Positions 8,371 through 63,406 of a DNA stretch of 64,000 bases are shown one piece after another. The position numbers and the translations under genes were made by a program. The notes under the pieces were generated by a model. It had not been told where the DNA came from. It made no database searches and saw nothing but the letters and a program-made list of their open reading frames with translations. How positions within the stretch are numbered: the first letter of the stretch is position 1; each line of letters starts with the position of its first letter. This DNA is from Antedon mediterranea (Eukaryota > Echinodermata > Crinoidea > Comatulida > Antedonidae). Location of the stretch: assembly GCF_964355755.1 (NCBI RefSeq), contig NC_092672.1:1240001-1304000 (forward strand). Reading direction: 5' to 3'.

Positions 8371-8551
8371 GGCTCTGTCTACACTATCAAACTTTTTGTG
8401 ACAACACAATGTGATGTACCCATATATGGACATGATGATGTCACATCACTACCATATTTAAGCATATCACTACCATATTTGGGCATATCACTACAATATT
8501 TGGGCACATCACACTTTTTTGTCAAACTAGTTTAATAATGTAGACAGAGCT
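8371..8551. mobile_element. MITE-A copy 4
   Basis: GGCTCTGTCTACACTATCAA ... ATGTAGACAGAGCT, right flank TAA. The core has three ATATTTGGGCATATCAC-like units. Confidence 0.82.
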
Positions 8552-9185
8552 TAATGTAGGTTGATTGCGGTTACAGCATTACATTTAATTGTATTAATCA
8601 CTGATTGCTAGGATTATGGTATCACTATACATCCTTATTATTGTATTTGTCATAAAGTCCTATTAAAAACTAAACTAAATTAATCTAATTTGAAATAATT
8701 GGATCAGTTAACATTATTACGTCATAATCATTGTCGTCATGAGCATCTCAGTTATAATTGTATCATTATCAAATTCATCTTCTTCATTTAAATTCCATCA
8801 TCAGCACTCATCACTCTTAATTATCATCGTATCGTTTTTTTAACGTTTATAAAATGAACTACAATAATCATAATGATATAATTTCTATTATTATACAGAC
8901 ACAAGACTGGCAACCTTAAATGTCACAATATAATCATTCTAAATGTCACACTTGACAAATTTTGTTACTGTAAATGTCACAGATGATGAATTTTGTTAAA
9001 TGTCACCAAATATGACAACAATTACTATTAAAGTATTCCATGCCTACTCAAAATGTCACATGACTAAAGCTTATTCATTTACATTTGGGAATTCTTATCT
9101 TCGACATCTTAAGGCAGTGATTTTAAATAAGAATGAGTTAACAGTATAACACGGTGAGGTCATTAAACTATTGAAACAATGGATA

Positions 9186-11035
9186 AACATGTTTACAACA
9201 TTATTATAGACATGTTTACAACATTATTATAGACATGTTTACAACATTATTATAGACATGTTTACAACATTATTACAGACATGTTTACAACATTATTATA
9301 GACATGTTTACAACATTATTATAGACATGTTTACAACATTATTATAGACATGTTTACTACATTATTATAGACATGTTTACAACATTATTATAGACATGTT
9401 TACAACATTATTATAGACATGTTTACAACATTATTATAGACATGTTTACAACATTATTATAGACATGTTTACAACATTATTACAGACATGTTTACAACAT
9501 TATTATAGACATGTTTACAACATTATTATAGACATGTTTACAACATTATTATAGACATGTTTACAACATTATTATAGACATGTTTACAACATTATTATAG
9601 ACATGTTTACAACATTATTATAGACATGTTTACAACATTATTATAGACATGTTTACAACATTATTACAGACATGTTTACAACATTATTATAGACATGTTT
9701 ACAACATTATTACAGACATGTTTACAACATTATTATAGACATGTTTACAACATTATTATAGACATGTTTACAACATTATTATAGACATGTTTACAACATT
9801 ATTATAGACATGTTTACAACATTATTATAGACATGTTTACAACATTATTATAGACATGTTTACAACATTATTACAGACATGTTTACAACATTATTATAGA
9901 CATGTTTACAACATTATTATAGACATGTTTACAACATTATTATAGACATGTTTACTACATTATTATAGACATGTTTACAACATTATTATAGACATGTTTA
10001 CAACATTATTATAGACATGTTTACAACATTATTATAGACATGTTTACAACATTATTATAGACATGTTTACAACATTATTATAGACATGTTTACAACATTA
10101 TTATAGACATGTTTACAACATTATTATAGACATGTTTACAACATTATTATAGACATGTTTACAACATTATTATAGACATGTTTACAACATTATTATAGAC
10201 ATGTTTACAACATTATTATAGACATGTTTACAACATTATTATAGACATGTTTACAACATTATTATAGACATGTTTACAACATTATTATAGACATGTTTAC
10301 AACATTATTATAGACATGTTTACAACATTATTACAGACATGTTTACAACATTATTACAGACATGTTTACAACATTATTACAGACATGTTTACAACATTAT
10401 TATAGACATGTTTACAACATTATTATAGACATGTTTACAACATTATTATAGACATGTTTACAACATTATTATAGACATGTTTACAACATTATTATAGACA
10501 TGTTTACAACATTATTATAGACATGTTTACAACATTATTACAGACATGTTTACAACATTATTATAGACATGTTTACAACATTATTATAGACATGTTTACA
10601 ACATTATTATAGACATGTTTACAACATTATTATAGACATGTTTACAACATTATTATAGACATGTTTACAATATTATTATAGACATGTTTACAACATTATT
10701 ACAGACATGTTTACAACATTATTACAGACATGTTTACTACATTATTATAGACATGTTTACTACATTATTATAGACATGTTTACAACATTATTATAGACAT
10801 GTTTACAACATTATTATAGACATGTTTACAACATTATTATAGACATGTTTACAACATTATTATAGACATGTTTACAACATTATTATAGACATGTTTACAA
10901 CATTATTATAGACATGTTTACAACATTATTATAGACATGTTTACTACATTATTATAGACATGTTTACTACATTATTATAGACATGTTTACTACATTATTA
11001 TAGACATGTTTACAACATTATTATAGACATGTACT
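9186..11035. repeat. 23-bp satellite array, about 80 copies
   Basis: Unit ACATGTTTACAACATTATTA plus TAG, head to tail for 1.85 kb with no interruption. Variants are few and recurrent: TTACAG for TTATAG, and TTTACTAC for TTTACAAC, the latter clustered toward the right end. The array decays after 11,035. Confidence 0.97.
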
Positions 11036-23840: not shown

Positions 23841-26800
23841 CTGAAAAAAGTGTAGTTAAAAATAATACGAGTCTTGTTGATAGGTACAGACTGTAACAAG
23901 TTCAATATGAATGTTATAGGTACAGTGGTGATCTAGTCTTTTAAAATTGGGGGAAAGTGGGATGAGGTTGACAGCCTAAAAAATGGTTCTGAACTTAAAC
24001 CTAATGTTCTTAAATTTCTAGTTTCTTGGTTATGTTATTGTTGCTTAAAAATATTATTACCAAGGTATCAATTTAATTATCAAAATGGTATAATTTTTTA
24101 CTGCAAATGTAATAAACCTAAATTATTGTCAACATATTTTTTTTTTTTAAATGGAAACCAGTAACATATGAAAACAAATTATGTCGTAAGTCTGTTTCTG
24201 TATCTATTTTGAAAACAAAGGCTAGAATCTAAAGCATGCAATATTTGTTTAGGATAAGAAGTTAATCCCTTACTTAAATAAATGGATCCACCAAATTTAT
24301 ATGTAATCTTGTTATATGCATAGAAAATGAATTAGGTCTACAAGCAGATAGAAACTTAAGACACAAACTTAAAAGCAGAGTAGATGACAAGATCAACATT
24401 CGATATATATGGATATAGTGATATGGATCCAGCAAGCACTGACCAATCAGAAGCTGTTAATGCACCTATAGATATTACTTTATTAAGCACAAACTTTAGT
24501 GTCTTAAGACAGAAGCCTAAGTGGTTATATAGACATCTTGATTTCAGCATGCTCAGATGATAAAACAGGCTTAGAAGAATAGCAGATATAAAATATGGAT
24601 GTATTGTAAAATAGCGAATTTTACATAAAATGCATTAAATAAAAAAAAACAAAAAAAAAAAACAAAAAGAAAAAAAAATACAAACAGAAAAACAAATACA
24701 AACATGTTTAATACAATCACAATTTTGTAAATAAAAAAAAATTAGTTTGAAACCAAATTATATTCTTTCAATCATTGCATCATGATGAAATATATTCTTT
24801 TTGTAGGTAAGCAATACAGAAAACATAAACTGATCATTTTGTTACATTTTTCTATTGAATTACATGAAGTATGATGTAAGAATTAACCTACAACTGATCA
24901 ATTCATGATTTCTGTATAGCCTACCTACAGATAAACAATGCACATCTTACTGTTGTAATTAGAAATACACATCTCTATGTAAAGCTCTGTCTACACTATC
25001 AAACTAGTTTGACCAAAAAAGTGTGATGTGCCCAAATATGGTGGTGATATGCTTAAATATGGTAGTGATATGACATCATCGTATCCATATATGGGCATAT
25101 TGCAATGTGGACAAAGATTTAGAAGAGGATCTTAACATTACAAAATGAACCTCAAGAACAAGTTGACAAAAAACGTGTACAAACCTGTTTTGATTTCTGC
25201 CACGCATCACTGACCGCAAGTTCAAACTTCTGTTTCTCGGCTGCGCTCATGAAATAAAACACCCATGGATTGTCCCCCTCACCGTCATTAAATTTCTAGC
25301 AAAAAATTTACAAGATTAATATTAATACTGCAGTAGATTCATTGTTTTACTTCAGTAATATACATTAAATTAACTATACTATTAAACTATAACTATTGAA
25401 TAAGATAATGGTATAGTGTTTTCGGAAGGTTTCTTGCTTTTTTTACTTTATCGTTTTGATCTAGTTTGTTGCTTATTTTATTTGTATCTCCATTGATATC
25501 TTGCCACTGATACCCACAGCATTGTCATTTTGTATCTCCATTGAGATCCAGCCACTGATACCCACAGCATTGTCATTTTGTATCTCCATTGATATCTAGT
25601 CACTGGTACCCACAACATTGTCATTTTGTATCTCCATTGATATCTAGCCACTGATACCCACAGCATTGTCATTTTCTCAGTATTTTGCTTATAAATCTAT
25701 CATTGCATTAATCAATATTATGATATAAATATATTATACTGTTATATTGTCAGTGACATTGTCTTGTCAGTGTGTGTACTGTCCTAATGGTCAGCTTCAG
25801 CTGGATGCACCATGCAAAACATAGTCAAAATAAATCAACATGTAACATAACTATTATATAATACTTACAACTATTGAATAAGACTGTAGTGCGTAGTCCA
25901 TCTGTAGACTGGTGATGTCACATATATTACAGCTACCAAGAATACGATAGAATTGCGTTTGACAGTCTTCGTGACAAAGAAACAACTTGGTATCCGACAC
26001 GACTAGACAACAAGGCTGGCAGGGAGAAGGTGCGTTACCCTCAATTTTAGACGTCATCTGTGAACATTAAAAGTTGTGATGGATACATTATTTTATTTTC
26101 ATTATAAAAGTTTTTTTATTTATTTTTTTTTTCTCCATGGATTTTTCTTCTTGAAAATCTACTATTACCGGTAGTTTCTTCATTAATAATAATAGAATAA
26201 GAATAATTTTTATTAAATCTTCTTTCTTTTAAAAAAAAAAAAAATTTATGTGAATTTCTCTTTTTTAAATATTGTATTGTACCAATATATAATATTCAAC
26301 AGTATATATATATATATGTATACGTACACTTTGTGCAACTATAGTGCAGATGGCTTGTAGCCAATCAGAGACTTCCATTTCATTTTCGCAGGCAACTTGC
26401 AGTGACGAGCCATCATCCAGAATGAGTTCAAAGGCATATGGTCGATCTCCATTACGCACTCGACGACATCCGCCAAAACGATTTGACCTAAACATTGATG
26501 ATACCAATATTTTATATTTTAGAAAACACATTATAATTGGTACTCATACAGTGTCAAAGTTATGCAACAATGTTCATGTTAATATCAAATGGGTTTTTGA
26601 CAATAGTTGCAACCAATACAGTATAGTAATTTACAGCCAATACAGCAATTTGTAGCCAATACAGTAATTTGCAACCAATACAGTAATTTGCAGCCAATAC
26701 AGTAATTTGCAACCAATACAGTAATTTGCAACCAATATCGTAATTTGCAACCAATACAGTAATTTGTAGCCAATACAGTAATTTGCAGCCAATACAGTAA

Positions 26801-29800
26801 TTTTTAACCAATACAGTAATTTGCAGCCAATACAGTAATTTTTAACCAATACAGTAATTTGCAGCCAATACAGTAATTTGCAGCTTACCTTAATTGCACA
26901 GACAACTCAGGCTCATCACTACCTTTCTGAGCAAACTTATGAAACGTATCATGCTTGAGCAGACAATAACAAGGCTTCCAGTAAGCGTAGAACAATTTGG
27001 AACTTGGAACCTTACAGTCCAGCTTGCCCTCCTTGACCACAGGTGACCGGTATAGCTGTAGGTCAGCAGCCGCAAGAGAATTGGTCAAGTCTTCCCAGTG
27101 GACCAATGAGTAAAGGAGGATTTGAACATCTACAACCTGTTATTAAAATTTATTTCCTATGACAGCTTGATAGTTAATTCTAAACTTCTTTTATAACATT
27201 TTTAATCTATAAGGTATTTCTAGAACCAAACAAACCTAGACAGCAAAAAGGAACAACTTGAGAGAAAATAAACACACAACAAATAGTGGAGTTTACCATA
27301 TAAAATTAAAAGATATAATATGAGATTATTTACGTCACAATCTGATTGTTGCGCAACAAACTTGCAAAGTGTAATCTTCTGCGTGGTAGCATCCGTCAGA
27401 ACACTCGGTAAACCCTTTGTCCGACTTCCTCCTTTCATGATTTGCTTAAGTTCATCTAAAAAATATCTGAAAAAGAAATAGAAAAATAAATGTATACATA
27501 CAGAGTCATTATTTTTAGTCAGCATAGACTAAAATGACTCTATAAAGAAGAATGCATGCATCAAACTAACCAAGAGTACATGTTAAGGTGTCACCCAACT
27601 AAGTTTCAGTGTAATAGGTGTAGCCATTGCACAATATATAGGCTGAGCCTGGTATACGGGACATGGTACATATTTATCTATTTATAGAATTAAAATAAAG
27701 AGTGATTACTTAGTGCTTGATTCACATCCATTTGACAGCCAGTATTGCTTCCTTCTATTCACACAGACCAGCTGAATTATCTGGTAATTCAAACTCACCT
27801 AAAAAAAATAATTAAATTTGAATGAATTGTTTATATAAATAAAATAATTTAATTTTTGTTCAAGTTTTTAGTTTTGGAATTTAATTTGGGGTAGTAATAA
27901 ACTTACCGATATATAATCTAAATCATTGTATTGAATTCTTGATTCCACAGAATACGACAAGTCTGAGTCTCCTAAAAAAAACAATCACCTAAATATCATC
28001 TAAATAATTTGTCAATATTTTCAAGCTTTGTAAGGCAAGTCTTCCTCGCTTAACCAGGTCATAGGTTATAGGTCATCGCAATTCTTACCCTTTCTTAATA
28101 AGTACAAAGCTTGGTCCGTGAGTAGAAGAAAGACTGGTTGAATGTCGCCCTCAGAATGACCCGTAGTGAGGTGAAACATCTAAGACGATAAAAAAGATCA
28201 TTATCAACTTTTTATTTTTATTTTTATTTTCTTTGCATTAAAAACACACATTCTAGCAAAGGGATCATGTCAAAACTACTTTACTGTAGTTACAGGAGTA
28301 ATTATGTATTGTAAAAAAAATAAAGCAATTCCTGTACAAACATTTTGTATGATTGTCCAAAAATGTGTAAAAAAATGCTTGCTAAATAATTGCATGAAGA
28401 GGTTAAAATGTAGTAACTGCAGGAAATAATTTGACATGATCCATAATATGAAATTACACACAAGAGAAACACACAAATTAAATCCTTATACCCAAACCCA
28501 ATTACTTTTCAGTCTGGTAGGATTTTTATGTGACAAACAGAGCAAGCTTTATATCATTATTTCATGACATCATTTTATAAAATTTGTTTTACTATGGAAA
28601 ATACAAACTTGTACTCACCTTCCTAAACTCTTCACTTTCATTCTTGAATATCTCAAGCATAAGAAATAGCTTTCTGTTGTTGTCAAGTCTGAAATAATTA
28701 AATAAAATCAAAGACGGGTGCTTCTTTTCAAGGTTTTATGATAGGTCTAACGTAAATCAAAAGTTCCCTAATTTTTTTTCTCTAGTAAAAGATACAATAA
28801 AATAATAAGATTTAAAAGGCGCACATATCCACAAAGTGCTCAAGGCACTTCTGAAAACCATGAAAAAAAACTAAACTTGAAACTAAAAACAACAAAACAA
28901 TTTGACGATTATCTAGTGAATGCTATTCCATCAACTTACTTCATTTCAATGTCTGGTTCAGGCTGCATGCTGATGGTAACTGATGCTGCACCTGATGCAC
29001 TGACAGAATCCTGATTCAATTCTCCACACTCACTCGGTTCCATCACACTGGATCCATTGCCAACACTTGTTCTGGATTCCTGTAAAGACTCCCTATCAGA
29101 GAAGCTCTGAGAAGGAGAAGATTGTTCTGGACTTGAACCAACGCTCTCAGATGACTTCAAAGAAGGCTTATCAGTTTCATCAAACTTCTGATGAACTGGA
29201 CTTGAAAAGAGGCTTTCATAACTGCCATCTTGAAGACTTTTATCAACATCCTGTTGCAATGATGTTTCGACAAGATGCTTGAATGATGTATCTGCTCTTT
29301 GTGGTTGGGAATTTTCATCTTGCAACCTGTCATCTGTTTCAGTCTTTATGTTATTAATTGTACAATCTGCCAGCATATGACCACCATCTACCAGCATGTG
29401 ACTACCATCCACTAGCATGTGATCCCCATCTGATATTTTATTATCTTTTTTAACATTTTTTTCTAATAAATTATTTGTTTCATCAGCTTTAATTTGTTCT
29501 GTGCTGAATCTCCTGGGAAGCTCAGGATTATTGCAATCTGTAAAGTCTGTACTAAATGATTTCTCCTTTGTTTCTACTGTCATGATTACTGGTGAATTTA
29601 AGTGTCCTGCTAATATATTATTATCTCTTGTGAAAGATAATTGGCTGGGTGAAGGATTTTCACTACGAATAAATGGACTGTTTAAATGATCATCCGCACG
29701 TATAGAATCTCCTAATGATGAAAAACTGACATTGTCACTGAAAGACATTGGAGTGCTGGACCAGCTCTCTTCACTGGTGATACTAACAGTACCATCTTCA

Positions 29801-32800
29801 GAGTTTAAGCTCACAGTCTCTTTGTTGGAAGGAGTCTTAGATGCTCTTCTTTTCTTACGCTTCCCTTTTTTACTTTTTTTCTGAAAAATATGAATAACTT
29901 CTAGACTTTCGTTGAGATCATCTGTAATAGATTCCTCTCTGAAAACCCTTCTCAACGGTTTCTCTTTTGAGATATCCAAGACGTCAACGGAAAAATCATT
30001 TTTTTCTAATAAGGCATCTAAACACTGTGTTGGTTTATCAACTCCTTTTGATATATTTGACACTTCAACCGGTAAATCATTTTTCTCTGATAATGCATCT
30101 AAACACTGTATTGGGTTATCAACTGGTTTAAATGGCTCCTCCTTTGAAATATTTAAAGACTGTGTTAGTACTTCAATTGGTTGTGTGTCTATTGCATGGT
30201 TCTGGTCATATTCACATAGATTTGATGTAATTTCTACAGTTTTTACATTACATTCTCCATCACTTAAAGAAGAACTTCTTAACAATTCTTGATTAATTGA
30301 TTTTTCTTCTGTCATTCCACCATCCGTCTCCACATCATCATCTCCGTAAACAATAGTTTCTCCGCTGCATTCTATACACTGTGAGTTTGTTCTTACTCTG
30401 GATTCTATTGGACTGTTTGTAGCACACGCGGATTCACTACTTCCGATCGAAGCGGTATCATAGTTAAAATAATTGTCTTCTTTTTCCTCATCTAATTTAG
30501 TTGCGGAGCGTGGCATGTGACTAACCAAATCCAAGTAAGCATTGTTCTAGAGAAAAGCAAACCACGTACACTGGATCAGTTATTACAATTCATCATAAAA
30601 TAGGTTAATTCATTACATTATCACAAACGCTGAACGTCTTGTGACATAGCACACTCAACAAGACTTTTCCAATCATTATTGGAAAAATTTGCATAGATTT
30701 TAATATTTATTTTATTAGATTTATAATTAATACCTATAATTAAATTATTGAATGAAGAATTTGATTCTAAACAAACAGTGGTTTATCCTTTATTGATTTA
30801 AAATATGATTAAAATATATTTTTTAAAGTCATGTGTTTAGGAAATTTTATTACGCATCTGGTGTTTTCATAAATGAAATTTGTAATTAAACATTAAACTT
30901 CTCCAATTTACATGCACATTGCTGCTACACTGTTTAGATGGTTTAAGCGTGGTTTCCACTAGGACGCAAAACAAGGACGTAGTTGTAACGCAAGCGAGTT
31001 GGCAAATCACACACAACTATTTGAATAACCCATTGCTTGTGATTGATCAATCACTTTGTGTTGCGTTAAGTCCTAGCGTTGCATCCACGCATTAGAGAAC
31101 CACACAAATATCATTCTTAATTAGTAAGATTTACTTTAAATTTGAGAACAGATGAATGACATTTAAAGTACTTTAAAACCAGGAAGATGTACTTACTAAT
31201 TCTGGATCAAACTGAACAAAGTCTAAGCCTGACACAAGCGTTTGTAGTAGGATTAAACGTTGCTTATCTCTCAGGATGGCATCTCTGAAAAAAAAACATA
31301 GCAAATAATGAAAAATGTGAACTTTTAAAATACTAGAAGTTAGAACTAAAGTACATGTGTACATTATTTGAATGTTTTTAATTGTAATTTCGTTCTATGT
31401 ATGATGTAATTGTGAATGTTTTACCGTAATATTTTCTGTCGAGGAAAACTATTTTTCCATGTACACACATTACATATGGAACAAATATGTGTACAGTAAA
31501 CAATACAATCCTTGTATTCAGACCATGTAGTAATTTTCTCAATAAAACAGTTTTATTAGATCATTCCAAACTATTCTAGTGATTTGCCTAAATATGGTAG
31601 TGATATGCCCAAATATGGTAGTGATATGACATCATCATGTCCATATATGGTCACATCATATTTTTTGTCACATAAAGTTTGATAGTGTAGACTGAGTTTA
31701 AGAACCGACTACAGTAAAAAAAGGTTGTTAAATAATTACAGGTTGTAAAGGGTAGTAGAATAATGTTTGCATTGTCCTTTTGTAGCTTAAACTGCTTAGA
31801 CCTTGGGATTGAATGGTCTCTGAGCAGCTGATGCTTCCATATACACAGGAACAAATGCTTGTTGTGGCTGAAACTTATTATAGCTTATCTTGTTTAATTT
31901 GTCTACAATGAACAAGGCCAGTGACTGTTTATAGAAGGTCTGACCATGGTCTGACCATGAGTAGCAGTACTGTAGTATATAAACACAAGCAGTAAATAGA
32001 TATTCCTTCCTTCCATTCATACATACAAAAGGAACATCTATTAACAACATCTGTTAAGTTGCATATCCTGTTTATTTAGATGATTAAGAGTTACTTTAGT
32101 TATTGGTCAGTACTTATCTCAGGTAGATTACAATTAAATCAGGCAACTCCCTGCTATAATATTATGTTCACAGGTCTGTCATATTGTAGCATAAGTTTTA
32201 AAACAAGATTTTCAGTGGAATGGAAACATCATTATTAATCTTTTATTTCATAAATATCACAAATATCATATCTCGTTGCCTCACGGCCAAAATTACCCAT
32301 GATGTACATTACATGACAAGAAAAAAAAACATCTAAAACACAGAAAAAAACTCAGGGGAGTGGAAGACTGCCACAAAAAAAGCAAATTAATCTCATAATT
32401 ATTAATAGAAAGACTAGACTAGTTTAGGGTGATCAAGTAAACACCTGGTGTAACTTACTCATGATAGAAAGACTGGACTAATTTAGGGTGATCAAGTAAA
32501 CACTTGGTGTAACTTACTCATGATAGAAAGACTGGACTAATTTAGGGTGATCAAGTAAACACTTGGTGTAACTTACTCATGATAGAAAGACTGGACTAGT
32601 TTAGGGTGATCAAGTAAACACTTGATGTAACTTACTCATGATAGAAAGACTGGACTAATTTAGGGTGATCAAGTAAACACTTGGTGTAACTTACTCATGA
32701 TAGAAAGACTGGACTAGTTTAGGGTGATCAAGTAAACACTTGATGTAACTTACTCATGATAGAAAGACTGGACTAATTTAGGGTGATCAAGTAAACACTT

Positions 32801-35800
32801 GGTGTAACTTACTCATGATAGAAAGACTGGACTAGTTTAGGGTGATCAAGTAAACACTTGGTGTAACTTACTCATGATAGAAAGACTGGACTAATTTAGG
32901 GTGATCAAGTAAACACTTGGTGTAACTTACTCATGATAGAAAGACTGGACTAGTTTAGGGTGATCAAGTAAACACTTGGTGTAACTTACTCATGATAGAA
33001 AGACTGGACTAGTTTAGGGTGATCAAGTAAACACTTGGTGTAACTTACTCATGATAGAAAGACTGGACTAGTTTAGGGTGATCAAGTAAACACTTGATGT
33101 AACTTACTCATGATAGAAAGACTGGACTAGTTTAGGATGATCAAGTAAACACTTGGTGTGACTTACTCATGATAGAAAGACTGGACTAGTTTAGGGTGAT
33201 CAAGTAAACACTTGATGTAACTTACTCATGATAGAAAGACTGGACTAATTTAGGGTGATCAAGTAAACACCTGGTGTAACTTACTCATGATAGAAAGACT
33301 GGACTAATTTAGGGTGATCAAGTAAACACTTGGTGTAACTTACTCATGATAGAAAGACTGGACTAGTTTAGGGTGATCAAGTAAACACTTGATGTAACTT
33401 ACTCATGATAGAAAGACTGGACTAATTTAGAGTGATCAAGTAAACACTTGGTGTAACTTACTCATGATAGAAAGACTGGACTAGTTTAGGGTGATCAAGT
33501 AAACACCTGGTGTAACTTACTCATGATAGAAAGACTGGACTAGTTTAGGGTGATCAAGTAAACACTTGGTGTAACTTACTCATGATAGAAAGACTGGACT
33601 AGTTTAGGGTGATTAAGTAAACACTTGGTGTAACTTACTCATGATAGAAAGACTGGACTAGTTTAGGGTGATCAAGTAAACACTTGGTGTAACTTACTCA
33701 TGATAGAAAGACTGGACTAGTTTAGGGTGATCAAGTAAACACTTGGTGTAACTTACTCATGATAGAAAGACTGGACTAGTTTAGGGTGATCAAGTAAACA
33801 CTTGGTGTAACTTACTCATGATAGAAAGACTGGACTAGTTTAGGGTGATCAAGTAAACACTTGGTGTAACTTACTCATGATAGAAAGACTGGACTAGTTT
33901 AGGATGATCAAGTAAACACTTGGTGTGACTTACTCATGATAGAAAGACTGGACTAGTTTAGGATGATCAAGTAAACACTTGGTGTAACTTACTCATGATA
34001 GAAAGACTGGACTAGTTTAGGGTGATCAAGTAAACACTTGGTGTAACTTACTCATGATAGAAAGACTGGACTAGTTTAGGGTGATCAAGTAAACACTTGA
34101 TGTAACTTACTCATAATAAAAAGACTGGACTAGTTTAGGGTGATCAAGTAAACACTTAGTGTAACTTACTCATGATAGAAAGACTGGACTAGTTTAGGGT
34201 GATCAAGTAAACACCTGGTGTAACTTACTCATGATAGAGAGACTGGACTAGTTTAGGGTGATCAAGTAAACACCTGGTGTAACTTACTCATGATAGAAAG
34301 ACTGGACTAGTTTAGGGTGATCAAGTAAACACTTGGTGTAACTTACTCATGATAGAAAGACTGGACTAGTTTAGGATGATCAAGTAAACACCTGATGTAA
34401 CTTTCCAATGATGTTTCCTTCAGAGAGAGATACAACCATGCACGACCTTAAAAGAAAACAAAATTGATAATTAAGTTAAAAAATCCATTTCTATTATTTA
34501 AAATTCATGAACTTTGGACGAATAGTTGAATAATATACAAAGAACAGTGGAAGAAGACTTTATTCTTACTCTAAACTTAATCTCAGTTCTACGAGCCACA
34601 TTTTAAAACTAACTCTATTAAATATTAATAAATATAATTTGTGACAACCGAGAAACAAGGTTGGATTTTTAATTGATTGTGCGCAGGGAAGTTGGAACAT
34701 AGTTCTTCACTCTACTCCTAGACATTTTGTGACATCAATGCATAGATCAAAAGTCGTTGCAAAACCAAAAATCCCTATTTACAACACAACTTGTTGTACC
34801 TCGTCCAAAATCAGTTGCGAGACGGTTCAGGGCCATGATGTCCGATATGATGTCTTTGTGTGTGAATTTCTGAACCATCCCCCAGTATCCAGCAGTAATA
34901 ACACGCAACCTGCAAAACAATAAATATAATGCAAAATAGTATGACAAGTTATTCACATAGAAATCAATGTATGGGGTGCAAAAGATGACAAAGCAAAATA
35001 ACAAGTTACAGTGGATTATTTCTCCCAATTCCTTCAAGGTTAAAAGTAAATATCAAACAAAATAATTACACTGTTATAAATTAACATGAAAATTAAACAT
35101 GTTTTACTGTATGTTGTATGGGGCGCAAAAGTTGACAACAGAATATAGATTAATCAACACAAGTACATGTCATCATTGACCCCCACAATAAATGCACATT
35201 CAACTAACCCATGTAGAAATGCATGATCAATATGCTCTACTAATCTTTGGAATGATCTATCCTCGTCAGTTATTGGCGTCACATCTTCTGAATCTTGACT
35301 GAAGTAGAACTTTTGCACCTGAAAAAATCCAAATACAATAATTTATTAAATATTTTTAACAGCTGTTATAAAAGGTTTGATTTTATTCGTTTTAAAACTG
35401 AAACTGCTCATTGTTTTTTTTTTTATAAACCAAGTTGGTTTTACTTTTAGTTTACTTCTTTCCATTTATACTGTATAACAATTGGTTTCTCTATCTTATT
35501 TTAAATCATGGGAAATCTATCAAAAAATTTAAAATACAATATTGTACAGAAAGACAAAAGAAAAGATAGTTGCTAATTAGCTAGCAGCGGACGGCCTAAC
35601 AGAGTTTACACTTTTCCATTCCTATTAAATTTTGAATTGACATCAAGGACAATAATACTCAATAATACTGTTACATGAATAGTAATTTCACACACATTCA
35701 TTGTGTTAACAACAATAAACCTCATTTAAATAATTCATAAATATTCATTAGTTAATTACAATACTAAGCATGCTGGTAGACAGAATGCTACTTCAACATC

Positions 35801-58400: not shown

Positions 58401-61400
58401 AAAAACAGTGTGATGTGCTCAAATATTGTAATGATGTGTCCAAATATGGTAGTGATATGCCAAAATATGGTAGTGATGTGCCAAATATGGTAGTGATATG
58501 CCAAAATATGGTAGTGATGTGCCCAAATATGGTAGTGATGTGCCCAAATATGGTAGTGATGTGCCCAAATATGGTAGTGATGTGCCCAAATATGGTAGTG
58601 ATGTGCCCAAATATGGTAGTGATATGACATCATTATGTACATATATGAGCACAAACACTTTTTTTGTCGCATAAAGTTTGATAATGTGGACAGAGATTAA
58701 TAGACAAAATCAGAGCCCTCGTGAGAATTCTCACAGCTGCTATACGTCAGCCATTAAGGGCACAATGGGTTGTCATCATAAACATTGTATGAATTAGCTG
58801 TATTTGTTGTACTGTTTGATTGATTTGTTTGTCTGTAAAGCATCTTTTGTGAATATTAACCAACAGCGATCTTTTATTGGATTAAAAAATGATAGACAAT
58901 AATATCAAAAGGATTCCTATTTAAATTATATTGGTAAAATACATTGAAAGCAAAATGGTTGGCCAGTTAGTATTAATTCAATTTTTTTACTAATGTATTG
59001 TAAACTAAATGTAACCTGTAAAACGGAGGCGTCTATTCAACCCAACAGCAAAGGAACATTAATTAAGGGACATCTGGGGACATTAATTAAGGGACATCTG
59101 GGGACATTAATTAAGGGACATCTGGGGACATTAATTAAGGGACATCTAGGGACATTAATTAAGGGACATCTGGGGACAAAACATGGCTTTTTATTTATAC
59201 TACCAGAGCCACACAGCAACGGCCATTCAAGATGTTCAGATGAAAAGACCATGTTTCTGATGTCTTAAATCTTAAGGGATAAAAATATGTGACCTATTAA
59301 CCTATCTACAGAATGGGACATTATTTAAAGGGCATCCATGTGAACAGACCACTAAAGATTTTAAGAAGCAAACTTAAAGGTAAGGTACTTACTGTCTCTT
59401 CCTCGGTCCATTTCTTGTCAACTGACTTTGGGACTGGGTCTTTGATCAATGCTTGTAACGCCTTACTTGTTTGGTAGTCATAATGATGAAGCTGTTGATG
59501 CAACAACAATAATTAAATAAATAATTGAACTTTGTTTTAGCAAAATACACAAAAGTCTCAGTTAAACTGCAGTTTACAAATAAAACTATAGCACAACAAC
59601 CAAACAAACGTTGCATGAAATCTGCAATCATGAAACAAAATGAACAAAGTTGAAACTGTGGTTTTGGCTTTATTTGAATGAAATGTGTGTGTGTTCATCA
59701 CACAATAGAACGAAAAAAAGGGGCTCTGTCTACACTATCAAACTTTATGTGACAAAAAAATGTGATGTGCCCGTATATGGATGATATGTCATATCACTAC
59801 CATATTTGAGCACTTTTTAAAAACTAATTTGATAGTGTAGACAGAGCTTTAGAATGATCTAGGATAACCTGTGACTTGCAGCCTAATTTGGCTGAATTGT
59901 GCACAATTAACTAAGTTTAAGGAACTCACAATATTTAAAGCATTAATGGTTGTAATATCCTTAGACGCAGCATCACAACCTTCCTCAGGTGAACCGCCGT
60001 CACACATGCCTACAAACGCTGCCATGCTTCTTGCAGCTCGTAAGTACATCAGTAAATTCACGTCCTCTATGTGCGTTTTCCACGTCAGCTCCTCCTTCTC
60101 CGTTGTAGTTTGCCCGGTTGGTTTCGGCTTACATCGGTATAACGGTAGCACGGCCTGGTGACTTGGACCGATTTTAATCTCTCCTTGGGTGCTAGCAAGA
60201 CGTCTGTGACAAACAATAAAACCGTGATTAATAACATTTTTTGTTTTTTATATATTTAGGCCAAGGATACCCATAAGTGAATTTATTTCATAAATGTGAT
60301 AAACATACGTATGATTCTCTACATAAACAAAGGCCCTGTTCAGACCCATGGCGTTAGACCGTTTTAGCGTACGACGCTAAAAGAATGTGTGTCTGAACAG
60401 TTGGGGATTAGCGTACAACGCGTCGTACAACGGTTGTAGCGTTGTAGTGGAAAACGGTTGATAGTACCGTTTTAGCGTACGACGCTACTGTAAGTCAACG
60501 TTGTATCCAATCAGAACGTTTCCTGTTATGACGCGATACAAGGTTTGACCTAGGCTGACATCTTGTATCGTCAATGTGTGAGATGGATTTCAATAACAAA
60601 AAGGCCAGAATAAATAAGGCCTAACTACACTACAAACTACTAACTATCAACTGATTACCATTATATTTTCTAACAAATGACATAAATACATGCACCTTGT
60701 ATTTAAACAGGGACTACGATCCCATACGCTTTTAGGCCTAGGCCTAGCTAGGCCTAGAGTCGATCATTCACGCATTTCATTCAAGCTAAAAACTAGCGTG
60801 GGACATCAAGTCACTCATTCATACAAGGCAGACTAGACTGGACAAGTTTAATGCTGAAAACTAACCCCCTAACTCCTAAAAAATTCAGTAAACAAACAAG
60901 GGGAGCTGTGTCCCTTTTATTAGCAAGTTAAGGGTTATTTTCAACCGACTGGAACAAAAAATATATATCTTTGACTGGACTGGATAGACTAATCACAATC
61001 AATTTTTTCTTCATCATTAGAAGGCTTGCTTTATTTTCGTAACACAAGAACCTGGGGAAAATGTTTTTAACACAAAATAAAACAATAGAAACAGAAATTT
61101 GGCTTTACTATATTTTTCTTAAATAAATGCTGAGGTATGTTTTATTTACGGCAAATTTTGTCATAATTGTAGGGCTGAGATCTAGGCCTATATACAGAGT
61201 GGAAATAATGATGAAAACACGTGGGTAAGAGCACATGAAATGCAACTAGAAACAACCTGAATGACGTACTTCCGTTGTAACGATAATCGTACGCTATGGG
61301 TCTGAACACCTCGTTTTTTTCTCTGCGGTTTGTAACGTGACCTTGCTAGTAACGTTGTATGCTAAAACGGTCTAACGCCATGGGTCTGAACAGGGCCAAA

Positions 61401-63406
61401 GTCTTATTACAATTAAAGCCCCATTCCCTACGTTTTTTAGATCTAATTTAAGATCACAAACTATATTTAATGTAAAAATAATACTATATGGTCCTATTGC
61501 GATAACTTTTTTCGTCTTTAAACGGTTAAAAATGTGAAAAATAAATCGATTTTAATAATTATAGCGGCCCGCTATAAATCCCAAAATGCATTGCGCGCGG
61601 ATTGATATTGTTGTTTTTCACCTGTAATTCGCCCACTTTTCGATCGATCGTGAAGCCAAAACAAATGGAAGACTCCTAACTTTTCAGCGAAAATACTGGG
61701 TTTTCCCCAATTTGTATCAACGGAGTCTGGCAAAAATAGAAAGACAATTAATGCAGCAACTATACAACGTCAAACTAGGTATATAGCTAGCGTACGATGT
61801 TCGTACGTTACCGATGTTTACCAGCTAGGCCTACAAAACTAAGCCTAGCTAGGCTAGGCCTGAGACCGTCCACGAGAGGTCGATCGCCGCGAGCTACTTA
61901 GGTAGTGCATTGTTTCTCACTTTTTATCATAATTTACCATAAAACGTACATTTAAGACAAGGAATGACATGGTTTAATGTTTTTAAAGTGATATATATGT
62001 ATTATTTTCCAAAAAACGTCCAAAATTGCAGGGAAGGGGTCTTTAAGTCTCATTGGGTGTGGAGTTGTAAATTGTCCAGACACTGACTTCATTAAAAGTT
62101 GAAAACAAATATTTAGAAAATAATGTTTTAATGTTACTTTTAACCTCAGAAATATTCTGGTTTCTTTGTTTGAGTAAATTTAACGTAACATTTCGTAATT
62201 TTAAAATGTTTAAAACACTTACCTAGTTTCTGGGTTGTATCCAAGAATATAAAAGAAACAATTGCGATCAGCTTCAAAATCTTTTGCACTGTGGATGTCA
62301 TTATAATGCTTCACGGTACATTTACCCCTACGGAAAAATTGAACAAGTTAAAACCAATTGATCATTCCTTTTAGTACAATATTAAAGACGTTATTTCCAG
62401 TAATTTACTGTCATGTTTACTAATGAAGTTATAAATGGAATAAGAATTTAAATTTCTACATAGTTATAACTGTATAAAGTTAAGTGTAGTGTAATGTTGT
62501 AGTTATATTATCAAAGACTACTATATTTAATAAGACAATTTGGAAATTGGAGACAACTCTGGGATATATTGTTCCCTTGGGTTGTCAAAACTTGAATTTA
62601 TATTTATTCATTAATTTTACTCAAGGCAACAGTTTCCCAGTAATGTGTTTTATAAAAGGATCTTGTCATAAAAAGTGTGTGACTTTCTGTAACTTTATAA
62701 ACACACAGTGTAAGTCTCGGGCGTGTCAGATATAAACAGCTCACGGTTCTTACCTTAGTAAACACACAGTGTAAGTCTCGGGCGTGTCATATATAAACAG
62801 CTCACGGTTCTTACCTTAGTAAACACACAGTGTAAGTCTCGGGCGTGTCAGATATAAACAGCTCACGGTTCTTACCTTAGTAAACACACAGTGTAAGTCT
62901 CGGGTGTGTCAGATATAAACAGCTCACGGTTCTTCACCACAGGATCAGTGATAATAAGATCAAAACCAGAATCTGAAAAAACACATCATGAATAATAAGA
63001 TTTATAGACCTAATGACAGGTGACAGACCTAATTTGCATATTTGCTACTTTAATGCATATCCTTAATTTGTATATGATATTTTCTGATTGTACCTTTTAA
63101 ACATGTGTCCACATGTGTACAAAATTCATGGTTATGAATTAATAAGATACCAATTTCATAGAAAAAAATCAGTTATGTTATAAAAAAAAAAAGAAGCTAA
63201 TTTGCATAATTACTGAATACTGAATACTATACATTCTGCAAGTTGTTCTCTTGTTGGAATGAAGAGGTCACACTCTAACTTAAATAAATCCAGTTCTTAC
63301 TATTTTCTGAGTGTCGATCTTGAACCAGCAGCTGATACACTGTCTCTGGTACTTCAACATGGCGATAGTACCACTTGGCTATCAAAATCACATTCTCACG
63401 TTTACT
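48460..63406 (-). CDS. RERE: RERE/atrophin orthologue, 14 exons, N-terminus outside window
   Basis: Nuclear receptor corepressor of the RERE/Atrophin family, which recruits HDAC1/2 and G9a through ELM2-SANT. Exons 5' to 3': 63301-63406, 62876-62972, 62223-62327, 59930-60203, 59393-59491, 56351-56431, 54753-54894, 54155-54241, 53108-53304, 52732-52884, 52206-52328, 50363-51696, 49655-49841, 48460-49437. Phases agree throughout: 3,963 nt, 1,320 visible residues. Order: end of BAH, ELM2, SANT, GATA-type zinc finger, acidic middle exon with repeated SUMO-consensus motifs, then the Atrophin region with Arg-Glu dipeptides and a His tract. Human RERE is 1,566 aa with a long Pro-rich middle that is not seen here. 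It is the full BAH-containing form rather than the short ATN1 type. The first exons lie beyond 64,000. Confidence 0.95.
49655..49841 (-). CDS. RERE: RERE exon (start of Atrophin region)
   Basis: Codes [20 protein letters not shown] and then a charged helix [20 protein letters not shown]. Human has [20 protein letters not shown] and [20 protein letters not shown]. Confidence 0.92.
49940..50072. mobile_element. MITE-A copy 11 (RERE intron)
   Basis: AGTTCTGTCTACCCTATCAA ... GATAGTGTGACAGAGCT, TAA on both sides. Located between the RERE middle exon and the start of the Atrophin region. Confidence 0.82.
50363..51696 (-). CDS. RERE: RERE large middle exon (acidic, SUMO-motif repeats)
   Basis: A 1,334-bp exon coding about 444 residues. 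The first half is Glu/Asp/Asn-rich and likely disordered or coiled. The second half has [24 protein letters not shown] and six tandem 13-residue repeats, then a run of acidic residues and SRNTR, which joins the next exon at the position of human [12 protein letters not shown]. The human Pro-rich middle is replaced by this sequence. Confidence 0.9.
50508..50745 (-). repeat. In-frame 39-bp coding repeat: six copies of a 13-residue SUMO-motif unit
   Basis: Six tandem units of the form [13 protein letters not shown] (variants FSPHS, MPPHS, MSSNS) inside the RERE middle exon. Each of the six carries IKKE, fitting the psi-K-x-E SUMO acceptor consensus. The 39-bp period keeps the frame. Confidence 0.93.
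51980..52155. mobile_element. MITE-B, degenerate copy (RERE intron)
   Basis: GTTGTGATTGGTCAATCCAC, TTACGTTACGTCTACG and AATTGGTCAACTCACCTGTG, ending AGGAACCATGCTTTA. Two right-half signatures suggest a rearranged or double copy. Confidence 0.6.
52206..52328 (-). CDS. RERE: RERE exon (acidic, with VKLE)
   Basis: Codes [20 protein letters not shown] and an acidic tail [14 protein letters not shown] followed by acidic residues fits the extended SUMO consensus. The acceptor is GGTTTAG|GTG and the donor is GAG|GTAAGC. Confidence 0.88.
52732..52884 (-). CDS. RERE: RERE exon (Ser-rich basic region)
   Basis: Codes [20 protein letters not shown] and a Ser/Thr-Lys region with [18 protein letters not shown] and KKRK. 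Human has STLRSGRKKQPASP and GRNSPSAASTSSNDS. Confidence 0.92.
53108..53304 (-). CDS. RERE: RERE exon (second half of GATA zinc finger)
   Basis: Codes [20 protein letters not shown], giving the second Cys pair, then [20 protein letters not shown] and PVKDDE. Human has [20 protein letters not shown] and FMFKPVKEED. Confidence 0.96.
53448..53612. mobile_element. MITE-A copy 12, right end eroded (RERE intron)
   Basis: Left end AGCTCTGTCTACACTATCAA after TTA. The right arm reads GATACTGTAGTAGTAGATAG and is no longer a clean terminus. Confidence 0.7.
53758..54107. mobile_element. MITE-C copy 2 (RERE intron)
   Basis: AAGATGTATTGTCCCCCAAA ... GGGGGACAATACATCTT; flanks TTAA and TTAA or TA and TA depending on how the ends are drawn. 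About 350 bp, collinear with copy 1 plus a short insertion near the right end. Confidence 0.85.
54155..54241 (-). CDS. RERE: RERE exon (first half of GATA zinc finger)
   Basis: Codes [20 protein letters not shown] and then YACRHCFVT, providing the first Cys pair (C-x2-C) of the GATA-type finger. Confidence 0.95.
54295..54660. repeat. Diverged tandem repeat of about 60 bp (RERE intron)
   Basis: Units of TAATTGTTTGTGTGAACATT, TTACGTTTAGCCCTAGACGC and ATCATCATCATTATG, five to six copies, the right-hand three nearly identical. Confidence 0.85.
54753..54894 (-). CDS. RERE: RERE exon (end of SANT, basic tail)
   Basis: Codes [20 protein letters not shown] and a basic stretch [13 protein letters not shown], ending PPNSEY. 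It matches human [14 protein letters not shown]. Confidence 0.95.
56181..56317. repeat. Inverted repeat with arms of about 53 bp (RERE intron)
   Basis: Arms CACAAGACATATTAAAGG ... ATATAATAATA and complement, separated by about 25 bp; one or two mismatches. It lies 34 bp below the SANT exon donor at 56,351, so it would fold just inside the intron. Confidence 0.88.
56351..56431 (-). CDS. RERE: RERE exon (SANT domain)
   Basis: Codes [20 protein letters not shown] and then LIPSKQT; human has [20 protein letters not shown]. The donor is ACA|GTGAGT. Confidence 0.96.
56505..56765. repeat. 65-bp tandem repeat, 4 copies (RERE intron)
   Basis: Unit TAAGGAACTCGGGTCCCTGC plus GGGTCCATGGCAGCCACAG and CATACCATTATCAGGACAC; nearly perfect copies, GC-richer than the intron around it. 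Not similar to either neighbouring exon. Confidence 0.94.
57793..57997. mobile_element. MITE-C copy 3, degenerate (RERE intron)
   Basis: Shares ACCCATTGACTGGCTGCCAA and the right end GGGGGAAAATACATCTT; the left end is decayed. Confidence 0.65.
58376..58697. mobile_element. MITE-A copy 13 with expanded 21-bp core (RERE intron)
   Basis: Starts at ACACTATCAAATATTG, ends GATAATGTGGACAGAGAT, then TAA. The core, one to three units in other copies, holds about ten tandem units of 21 bp (GTGCCCAAATATGGTAGTGA plus T) at 58,420-58,625, doubling the element's length. Confidence 0.85.
59060..59180. repeat. 24-bp tandem repeat, 5 copies (RERE intron)
   Basis: Unit GGGACATTAATTAAGGGACA plus TCTG, one substitution in the whole array. 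Confidence 0.93.
59393..59491 (-). CDS. RERE: RERE exon (ELM2 end, SANT start)
   Basis: Codes [20 protein letters not shown] and then [20 protein letters not shown] is the start of the SANT domain. The acceptor is CAACAG|CTTCAT and the donor is ACA|GTAAGT. Confidence 0.94.
59722..59848. mobile_element. MITE-A copy 14 (RERE intron)
   Basis: GGCTCTGTCTACACTATCAA ... GATAGTGTAGACAGAGCT, then TTA. Short core with a single unit. Confidence 0.8.
59930..60203 (-). CDS. RERE: RERE exon (ELM2 domain)
   Basis: Codes [20 protein letters not shown] (ELM2 start) and, farther on, [20 protein letters not shown] and [14 protein letters not shown], ending INALNI. Human has [20 protein letters not shown]. 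Confidence 0.96.
60332..61397. mobile_element. 1,066-bp element with about 37-bp perfect terminal inverted repeats (RERE intron)
   Basis: The left end GGCCCTGTTCAGACCCATGG continues CGTTAGACCGTTTTAGC, and the right end is its exact complement. Flanks are AAA on both sides. GTCTGAACA and CGTACGACGCTA motifs recur inside as sub-terminal repeats. No ORF of useful length, so non-autonomous; the superfamily is unclear. Confidence 0.8.
61417..62046. mobile_element. Possible second non-autonomous element next to the 1,066-bp one
   Basis: Left edge AAAGCCCCATTCCCTACG and right edge CAGGGAAGGGGTCTTT are imperfect inverted repeats about 630 bp apart. The interior is mixed, with a CpG-rich patch (GCGGCCCGCTATAAATCC). 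Ends are approximate. Confidence 0.4.
62223..62327 (-). CDS. RERE: RERE exon (end of BAH domain)
   Basis: Codes [20 protein letters not shown] and then [12 protein letters not shown], matching human [15 protein letters not shown]. The acceptor is CCGTAG|GGGTAA; with the two bases of the previous exon this gives R-G-K, as in human LRGKC. Confidence 0.94.
62698..62935 (-). repeat. 61-bp tandem repeat of a RERE BAH exon end with its splice donor, 4 copies
   Basis: Four copies at an exact 61-bp period; the highest-coordinate copy is the 3' part of the RERE exon 62876-62972. CTAAG|GTAAGA donor junctions stand at 62,876 (authentic), 62,815 and 62,754; the fourth copy (62,698-62,750) lacks a donor. 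Intronic copies read GCGTGTC where the exon has GTGTGTC, and one has a CATATA variant. No acceptor precedes any copy, so they cannot form separate exons. Confidence 0.93.
62876..62972 (-). CDS. RERE: RERE exon (BAH domain; founder of the 61-bp repeat)
   Basis: Codes [20 protein letters not shown] and then [12 protein letters not shown]; human has [20 protein letters not shown]. The acceptor is TTTTTTCAG|ATTCTG and the donor is CTAAG|GTAAGA. The exon tail and donor are repeated in the next intron. Reading through the donor gives AGG TAA, an immediate stop. Confidence 0.93.
63301..63406 (-). CDS. RERE: RERE exon (BAH domain)
   Basis: Codes [20 protein letters not shown] and then [15 protein letters not shown], matching human [20 protein letters not shown]. 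It is the first RERE exon in the window. The acceptor is TTCTAG|AGTAAA and the donor is AATA|GTAAGA. Confidence 0.93.

Follow-up and report, generated by a model that had tools for sequence, protein, structure and literature searches.

A 59-bp minisatellite with 33 GTAAGT donors straddles the exon/intron junction of a PLEKHM2-like gene in the crinoid Antedon mediterranea

Introduction

The founding paper on the junction-straddling repeats known as mirages is reportedly Canestro 2002. In amphioxus, tandem repeats that span exon/intron boundaries, at donors as well as acceptors, have been described under that name in Adh3 (units of 10-72 bp) and in globin genes (units of 150-160 bp), among them BflGb6 and BflGb9 (PMC3087553). 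According to the available text of that paper, the splice signals AG and GT persist in many units though not in every one, cluster length varies (BflGb6 haplotypes with 6 and 3 repeat units) and is unstable, homogenisation spares the cluster edges, and reverse transcription PCR of the Adh3 and globin genes indicated that regular splicing is apparently undisturbed; intron gain through tandem duplication of a proto-splice site is mentioned there as well. In human segmental duplications, the text available of a second paper reports internal tandem repeats, on average four copies of a 30-bp unit and some of them at exon-intron boundaries, which have changed gene structure (new introns included) and can activate cryptic splice sites (PMC2812944). 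Here we analyze an array of 59-bp units that crosses the end of a coding exon of a PLEKHM2-like gene in the crinoid Antedon mediterranea. It lies in a stretch of 64,000 nucleotides, C3:1,240,001-1,304,000 of a 354-Mb assembly (hereafter the window), with a GC content of 33% and no N. This GC content and the 11 chromosome-sized contigs of the assembly would argue against Branchiostoma, and the contig number would suit a crinoid. Searches for GH6 and COX1, meant to place the host, did not do so: GH6 gave no match here and none in 14 controls, and COX1 gave none here and matches in 8 of 14 controls. A first-pass annotation of the window had reported the array together with an impression that no such arrangement was on record; the amphioxus mirages, as far as the available text goes, span exon/intron boundaries in just this manner (PMC3087553).

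As in amphioxus, the repeat is head-to-tail and crosses an exon/intron boundary (the exon being assigned by homology), the splice signal recurs in the units, and the 59-bp unit falls within the 10-160 bp given in the accessible text. Unlike BflGb6 with its 6 and 3 units, the PLEKHM2-like array contains 33 donors. At three sites its exon copy shows a combination seen in no other unit, and its terminal unit is decayed; this comparison of sites hints that edge copies may escape homogenisation here as well. On what the source texts report, the PLEKHM2-like array is a member of the described class of junction-spanning repeats, and it has more units than the globin case for which a count is given. 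It shares its place at an exon-intron boundary with the human internal tandem repeats, whereas those are found in human paralogues and consist on average of four 30-bp units. As in the duplication of a proto-splice site, the duplicated stretch carries splice signals, but no new intron is seen and the copies remain within the existing intron.

Results

The PLEKHM2-like gene is encoded on the minus strand, and its 100-nt RUN-domain exon (34347..34446) is followed directly by a GTAAGT donor at 34341..34346. Tandem Repeats Finder (TRF) reports a single array (32405..34403) with a period of 59, 33.9 copies, 97% matches and 0% indels. Reading in register from 34,347 agrees with this: GTAAGT is intact in 33 of 34 units, with exon-end positions at 34,347, 34,288 and onward to 32,459, exactly the geometry that the first-pass annotation had set out. 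The repeat does take in the tail of the exon together with the donor, as had been stated, although the exonic share of the unit, put there at 50 nt, is better given as 50-57 nt; these last 50-57 nt of the exon form unit 1. The 34th and terminal unit (32391..32449) reads ATTATG after 32,400 where GTAAGT is expected and has lost its donor. Pairwise identity among the 33 donor-bearing units averages 97.1% with a minimum of 89.8%. The 32 intronic units fall into 12 distinct sequences that vary at 11 sites, all by transitions (C to T on the coding strand at 7), and no variable site is inside the 9-nt donor; in the 33-unit comparison the donor positions were not detectably better conserved than other positions. 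Relative to the array consensus, the exon copy carries 3 differences, a combination present in none of the intronic units. Searched at the DNA level, the entire genome gave a single candidate region, the PLEKHM2-like locus itself, with at least 32 overlapping matches.

When the upstream exon (34800..34909), the array-bearing exon and the downstream exon (31197..31284, acceptor before 31,284) are joined via the first donor, one of the three frames is open. The joined product matches human PLEKHM2 (8jca_B) with an E value of 6.5e-22, ungapped over query residues 3-98 and across both junctions, and the next-best match is PLEKHM1 at 7e-13. A translation joined by hand to one further upstream exon matches the Pfam RUN domain with an E value of 1.7e-17. 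The earlier identification of 34,347-34,446 as a RUN-domain coding exon is borne out by these matches, and its numbering as exon 4 is plausible. With any of donors 2-33, GTAAGT would be kept in the message after ...CAT GA, so that the joined sequence reads GAG TAA and stops. Judged by the open frame and the PLEKHM2 alignment, the first donor is the correct one for the PLEKHM2-like protein; both this point and the stop behind each later donor had been recognized in the first-pass annotation.

Six further cases were found in the genome beyond the PLEKHM2-like one, so that donor and acceptor boundaries are both affected (5 donor-side arrays including PLEKHM2-like, and 2 acceptor-side arrays). One of them, an independent donor-side array, lies in the same window, also on the minus strand, at a BAH-domain exon that ends CTAAG/GTAAGA (62876..62972) and which we take to be RERE-like. 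A 61-bp array of 3.9 copies (62698..62934, TRF and reading) runs across the end of this exon, with donors after 62,876, 62,815 and 62,754 and a final copy without a donor. The exon scores 25.1 bits for Pfam BAH, below the curated cut-off of 30.8; joined from its first donor to the next exon (62223..62327), with the frame kept, it aligns ungapped to MTA1 with an E value of 1.6e-4. The exon upstream of it is at 63301..63400, its 5' end being approximate.

The DNAI2-like exon (L001, C1:1196300-1198100) carries six 69-bp copies, noted at positions 662-1075 of that stretch, with the junction ATT/GTAAGTAG. All six copies are identical, which indicates that apparently young arrays exist in the genome. 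Joined through the first donor, the exons match mammalian DNAI2 without gaps (E 7.6e-72); the later donors would be in frame, the frame staying open until past the last copy, so that their use would add repeats of 23 residues. In the array with the most donors, about 69 of them are spaced at 64 bp (L004/L005, C1:277307-281651; 67 listed triplets plus the edges), and the unit contains just the final 9 nt of the exon. This exon is a probable coiled-coil, assigned by eye, and is the least certain case; a family search returned no family above cut-off, the best being DUF4287 at an E value of 0.09. The fifth donor-side case is a PAK-like kinase exon (L065, C5:5310033-5311027; E 2.4e-39 to PAK1) with an 80-bp unit in at least 5.5 copies, counted to the end of the stretch examined. 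On the acceptor side, a kinesin exon (L159, C7:436782-437455) carries an exact 50-bp unit in at least 5.7 copies, again counted to the end of the stretch examined, and a DGK-like exon (L077, C1:21833500-21834800), a chance find, carries units of about 76 bp. In both of these the last acceptor adjoins the coding exon. The first donor gives ungapped homology through the junction in all three donor-side cases that offer both exons and a homologue (PLEKHM2, DNAI2 and BAH), a comparison that leaves out the PAK-like exon, whose next exon is not included, and the coiled-coil exon, which has no clear homologue.

Arrays at five other places on contig C1, 258k (L006), 1.43M (L081), 7.79M (L078), 17.48M (L079) and 17.78M (L080), were not accepted as mirages on reading, with no family search on the flanks. 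The same holds for C1:417k (L002, L003), where the upstream edge was not reached. Arrays at C1:0.29M, 0.68M, 2.48M, 3.42M, 4.24M, 19.36M and 22.25M are known from pattern rows alone. The places listed by the pattern search are the first ones, all on C1. Three GTAAGT at minisatellite spacing occur 3593 + 5022 times genome-wide versus 5410 + 4995 for the reversed pattern, i.e., without enrichment. Three GTGAGT occur 1346 + 989 times (reversed 1200 + 1532), for which no enrichment is claimed, nor is it for three AGGTAAGT (118 + 292, reversed 99 + 129), where a few large arrays dominate among the matches listed.

The frequency of such arrays was estimated from 120 exon matches, hand-picked regardless of arrays from 140 kinase rows (40 picks, short matches and some with stops) and 134 kinesin rows (80 picks, without internal stop); some of the loci overlap. 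The TRF list for 30 kinase loci with mostly long uninterrupted matches was left out of the junction counts. Simple scoring called 112 donors and 117 acceptors for the 120 matches. One called donor (PAK-like, L065) and one called acceptor (kinesin, L159) were in an array, the L159 acceptor having been called one unit upstream of that adjoining the coding match. We put junction-spanning arrays at the order of 1% of junctions, with wide limits. Arrays that lie close to a junction without crossing it (L090, L097, L127, L155 and L156 among them) were read and left out of the count. An overlap flagged at L072 proved to be a pyrimidine-rich intron end and hence no mirage. Array coverage by distance from the donor was 0.9% at -40 to +20, 2.2% at +21 to +60, 5.9% at +61 to +120 and 7.7% at +121 to +200; acceptor-side values were 3.9% (-200 to -121) and, in the vicinity of the junction, 1.4-1.7%. 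Coverage of the whole window is 17-19%. The drop toward donors is more readily explained by counter-selection at junctions than by recruitment, and the junction-spanning arrays appear to be the sparse margin of a minisatellite-rich genome stretch.

Other repeats in the window were noted in passing. In an intron that follows an adjacent coding exon (...CAATTAAG/GTAAGC), a 19-bp array (26625-26884) begins within a few bases of the intron start and does not take in the exon. From 9183 to 11032, a 23-bp unit is repeated about 80 times with 98% matches. The 21-bp motif GTGATATGCCCAAATATGGTA is recurrent in the window (e.g., 8445-8512, 31577-31628, and 58410-58623) and is found at several other loci, at times inside a longer shared stretch; it may be a short mobile repeat.

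Discussion

The array at the PLEKHM2-like exon is very probably a minisatellite of the mirage type that straddles the junction and is tolerated since the exon-adjacent donor is used. Its history would begin with a tandem duplication that took in 50-57 exonic nt and the beginning of the donor, followed by expansion to 34 copies via slippage or unequal exchange. New copies would be placed within the intron, past the first donor, so that the coding stretch ahead of it stays whole; as long as splicing takes the exon-adjacent donor, the rest would be removed as intron and the array could persist, presumably near neutrality. The same logic would apply at acceptors, where duplication of the acceptor with the start of the exon would disrupt neither the coding sequence nor the splice site next to the exon. 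An exonic AAG similar to the AAG of the donor lies at or close to the start of the PLEKHM2-like and BAH units. Microhomology at the breakpoints was considered as a requirement for the duplication and rejected: the DNAI2-like array has exactly 6.0 identical units with a remainder of 0, so shared microhomology is not required. Of the three roles that the first-pass annotation had proposed, titration of U1, decoy donors that tune splicing, and a neutral expansion, the neutral one fits best. Neither U1 titration nor decoy tuning finds support in donor conservation, predicted accessibility or the arrays in other genes.

Several points weigh against a tolerated array of this kind. That the first donor is the one used is something we infer from sequence. 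The hexamer and the 3 bases before it are the same in all 33 donors, so the donor itself gives no reason for the first one winning, and folding predictions give the first donor no advantage either, with an accessibility of 0.037 compared with 0.041 on average for the remaining 32. A neutral array, moreover, is not required to keep 33 of 33 donors intact; this last point is tempered by our own arithmetic, in which 11 variable sites would all miss a 9-nt donor by chance with a probability of about 0.13. The median accessibility at 32 other GTAAGT sites in the window is 0.05, and of 200 shuffled units 147 gave values that were equally low or lower. The idea that hairpins hide the later donors was rejected on these values. 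Exon context or the order of transcription may explain why a first donor wins.

It is unlikely, in our estimate, that the later donors serve as decoys to tune output. Transcripts spliced from a downstream donor would then gain GAG TAA and be subject to nonsense-mediated decay, and copy number would set the productive fraction. The presence of 33 equal donors, the immediate stop behind all alternatives and the lack of a predicted accessibility advantage for the first donor would suit such a function. However, similar arrays are found in other genes, and the alternatives in the DNAI2-like array (69 bp) would be in frame, which means that the arrays do not have the stop in common as a design feature. 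The amphioxus data, in the available text, also suggested no interference with splicing (PMC3087553). A broader version of tuning is an equally long shot: if mirages are common (about 1% of junctions) and the exon-adjacent donor is picked imperfectly among up to about 69 equal ones, array length could act as a fast-mutating, heritable splicing dial in many genes.

A dense row of GTAAGT might also be viewed as a binding array for U1 small nuclear ribonucleoprotein (snRNP), recruited against premature polyadenylation or titrated by the locus, for which we see very little chance. Titration of an abundant snRNP by one locus seems implausible, the calculated duplex of the array donor with U1 is weak (-5.6 versus -15.0 for the consensus; the donors of the neighbouring exons are at -5.7 and -7.0), and GTAAGT triplets are not enriched over the reversed pattern genome-wide. 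It is just as improbable that the array or its length is an assembly artefact: tandem arrays are in general error-prone in assemblies, but this one has 12 distinct units among 32, without indels and in a window without N, and the other mirages of the assembly vary in unit, length and uniformity. An accidental coding resemblance, such that 34,347-34,446 would not be an exon at all, is hardly conceivable given the ungapped match to human PLEKHM2 and the RUN-domain score.

Arrays of this kind are natural experiments on how one splice site is chosen among dozens of identical ones, and the genome offers a graded set: the PLEKHM2-like array with 33 frame-breaking donors, the probable coiled-coil exon with about 69, and the DNAI2-like array, whose 6 identical donors would read in frame. 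The arrays are relevant, too, to the idea that new introns originate from repeats across junctions. Provided that the small sample reflects their true frequency, they would also be liable to mislead gene prediction in genomes of this type.

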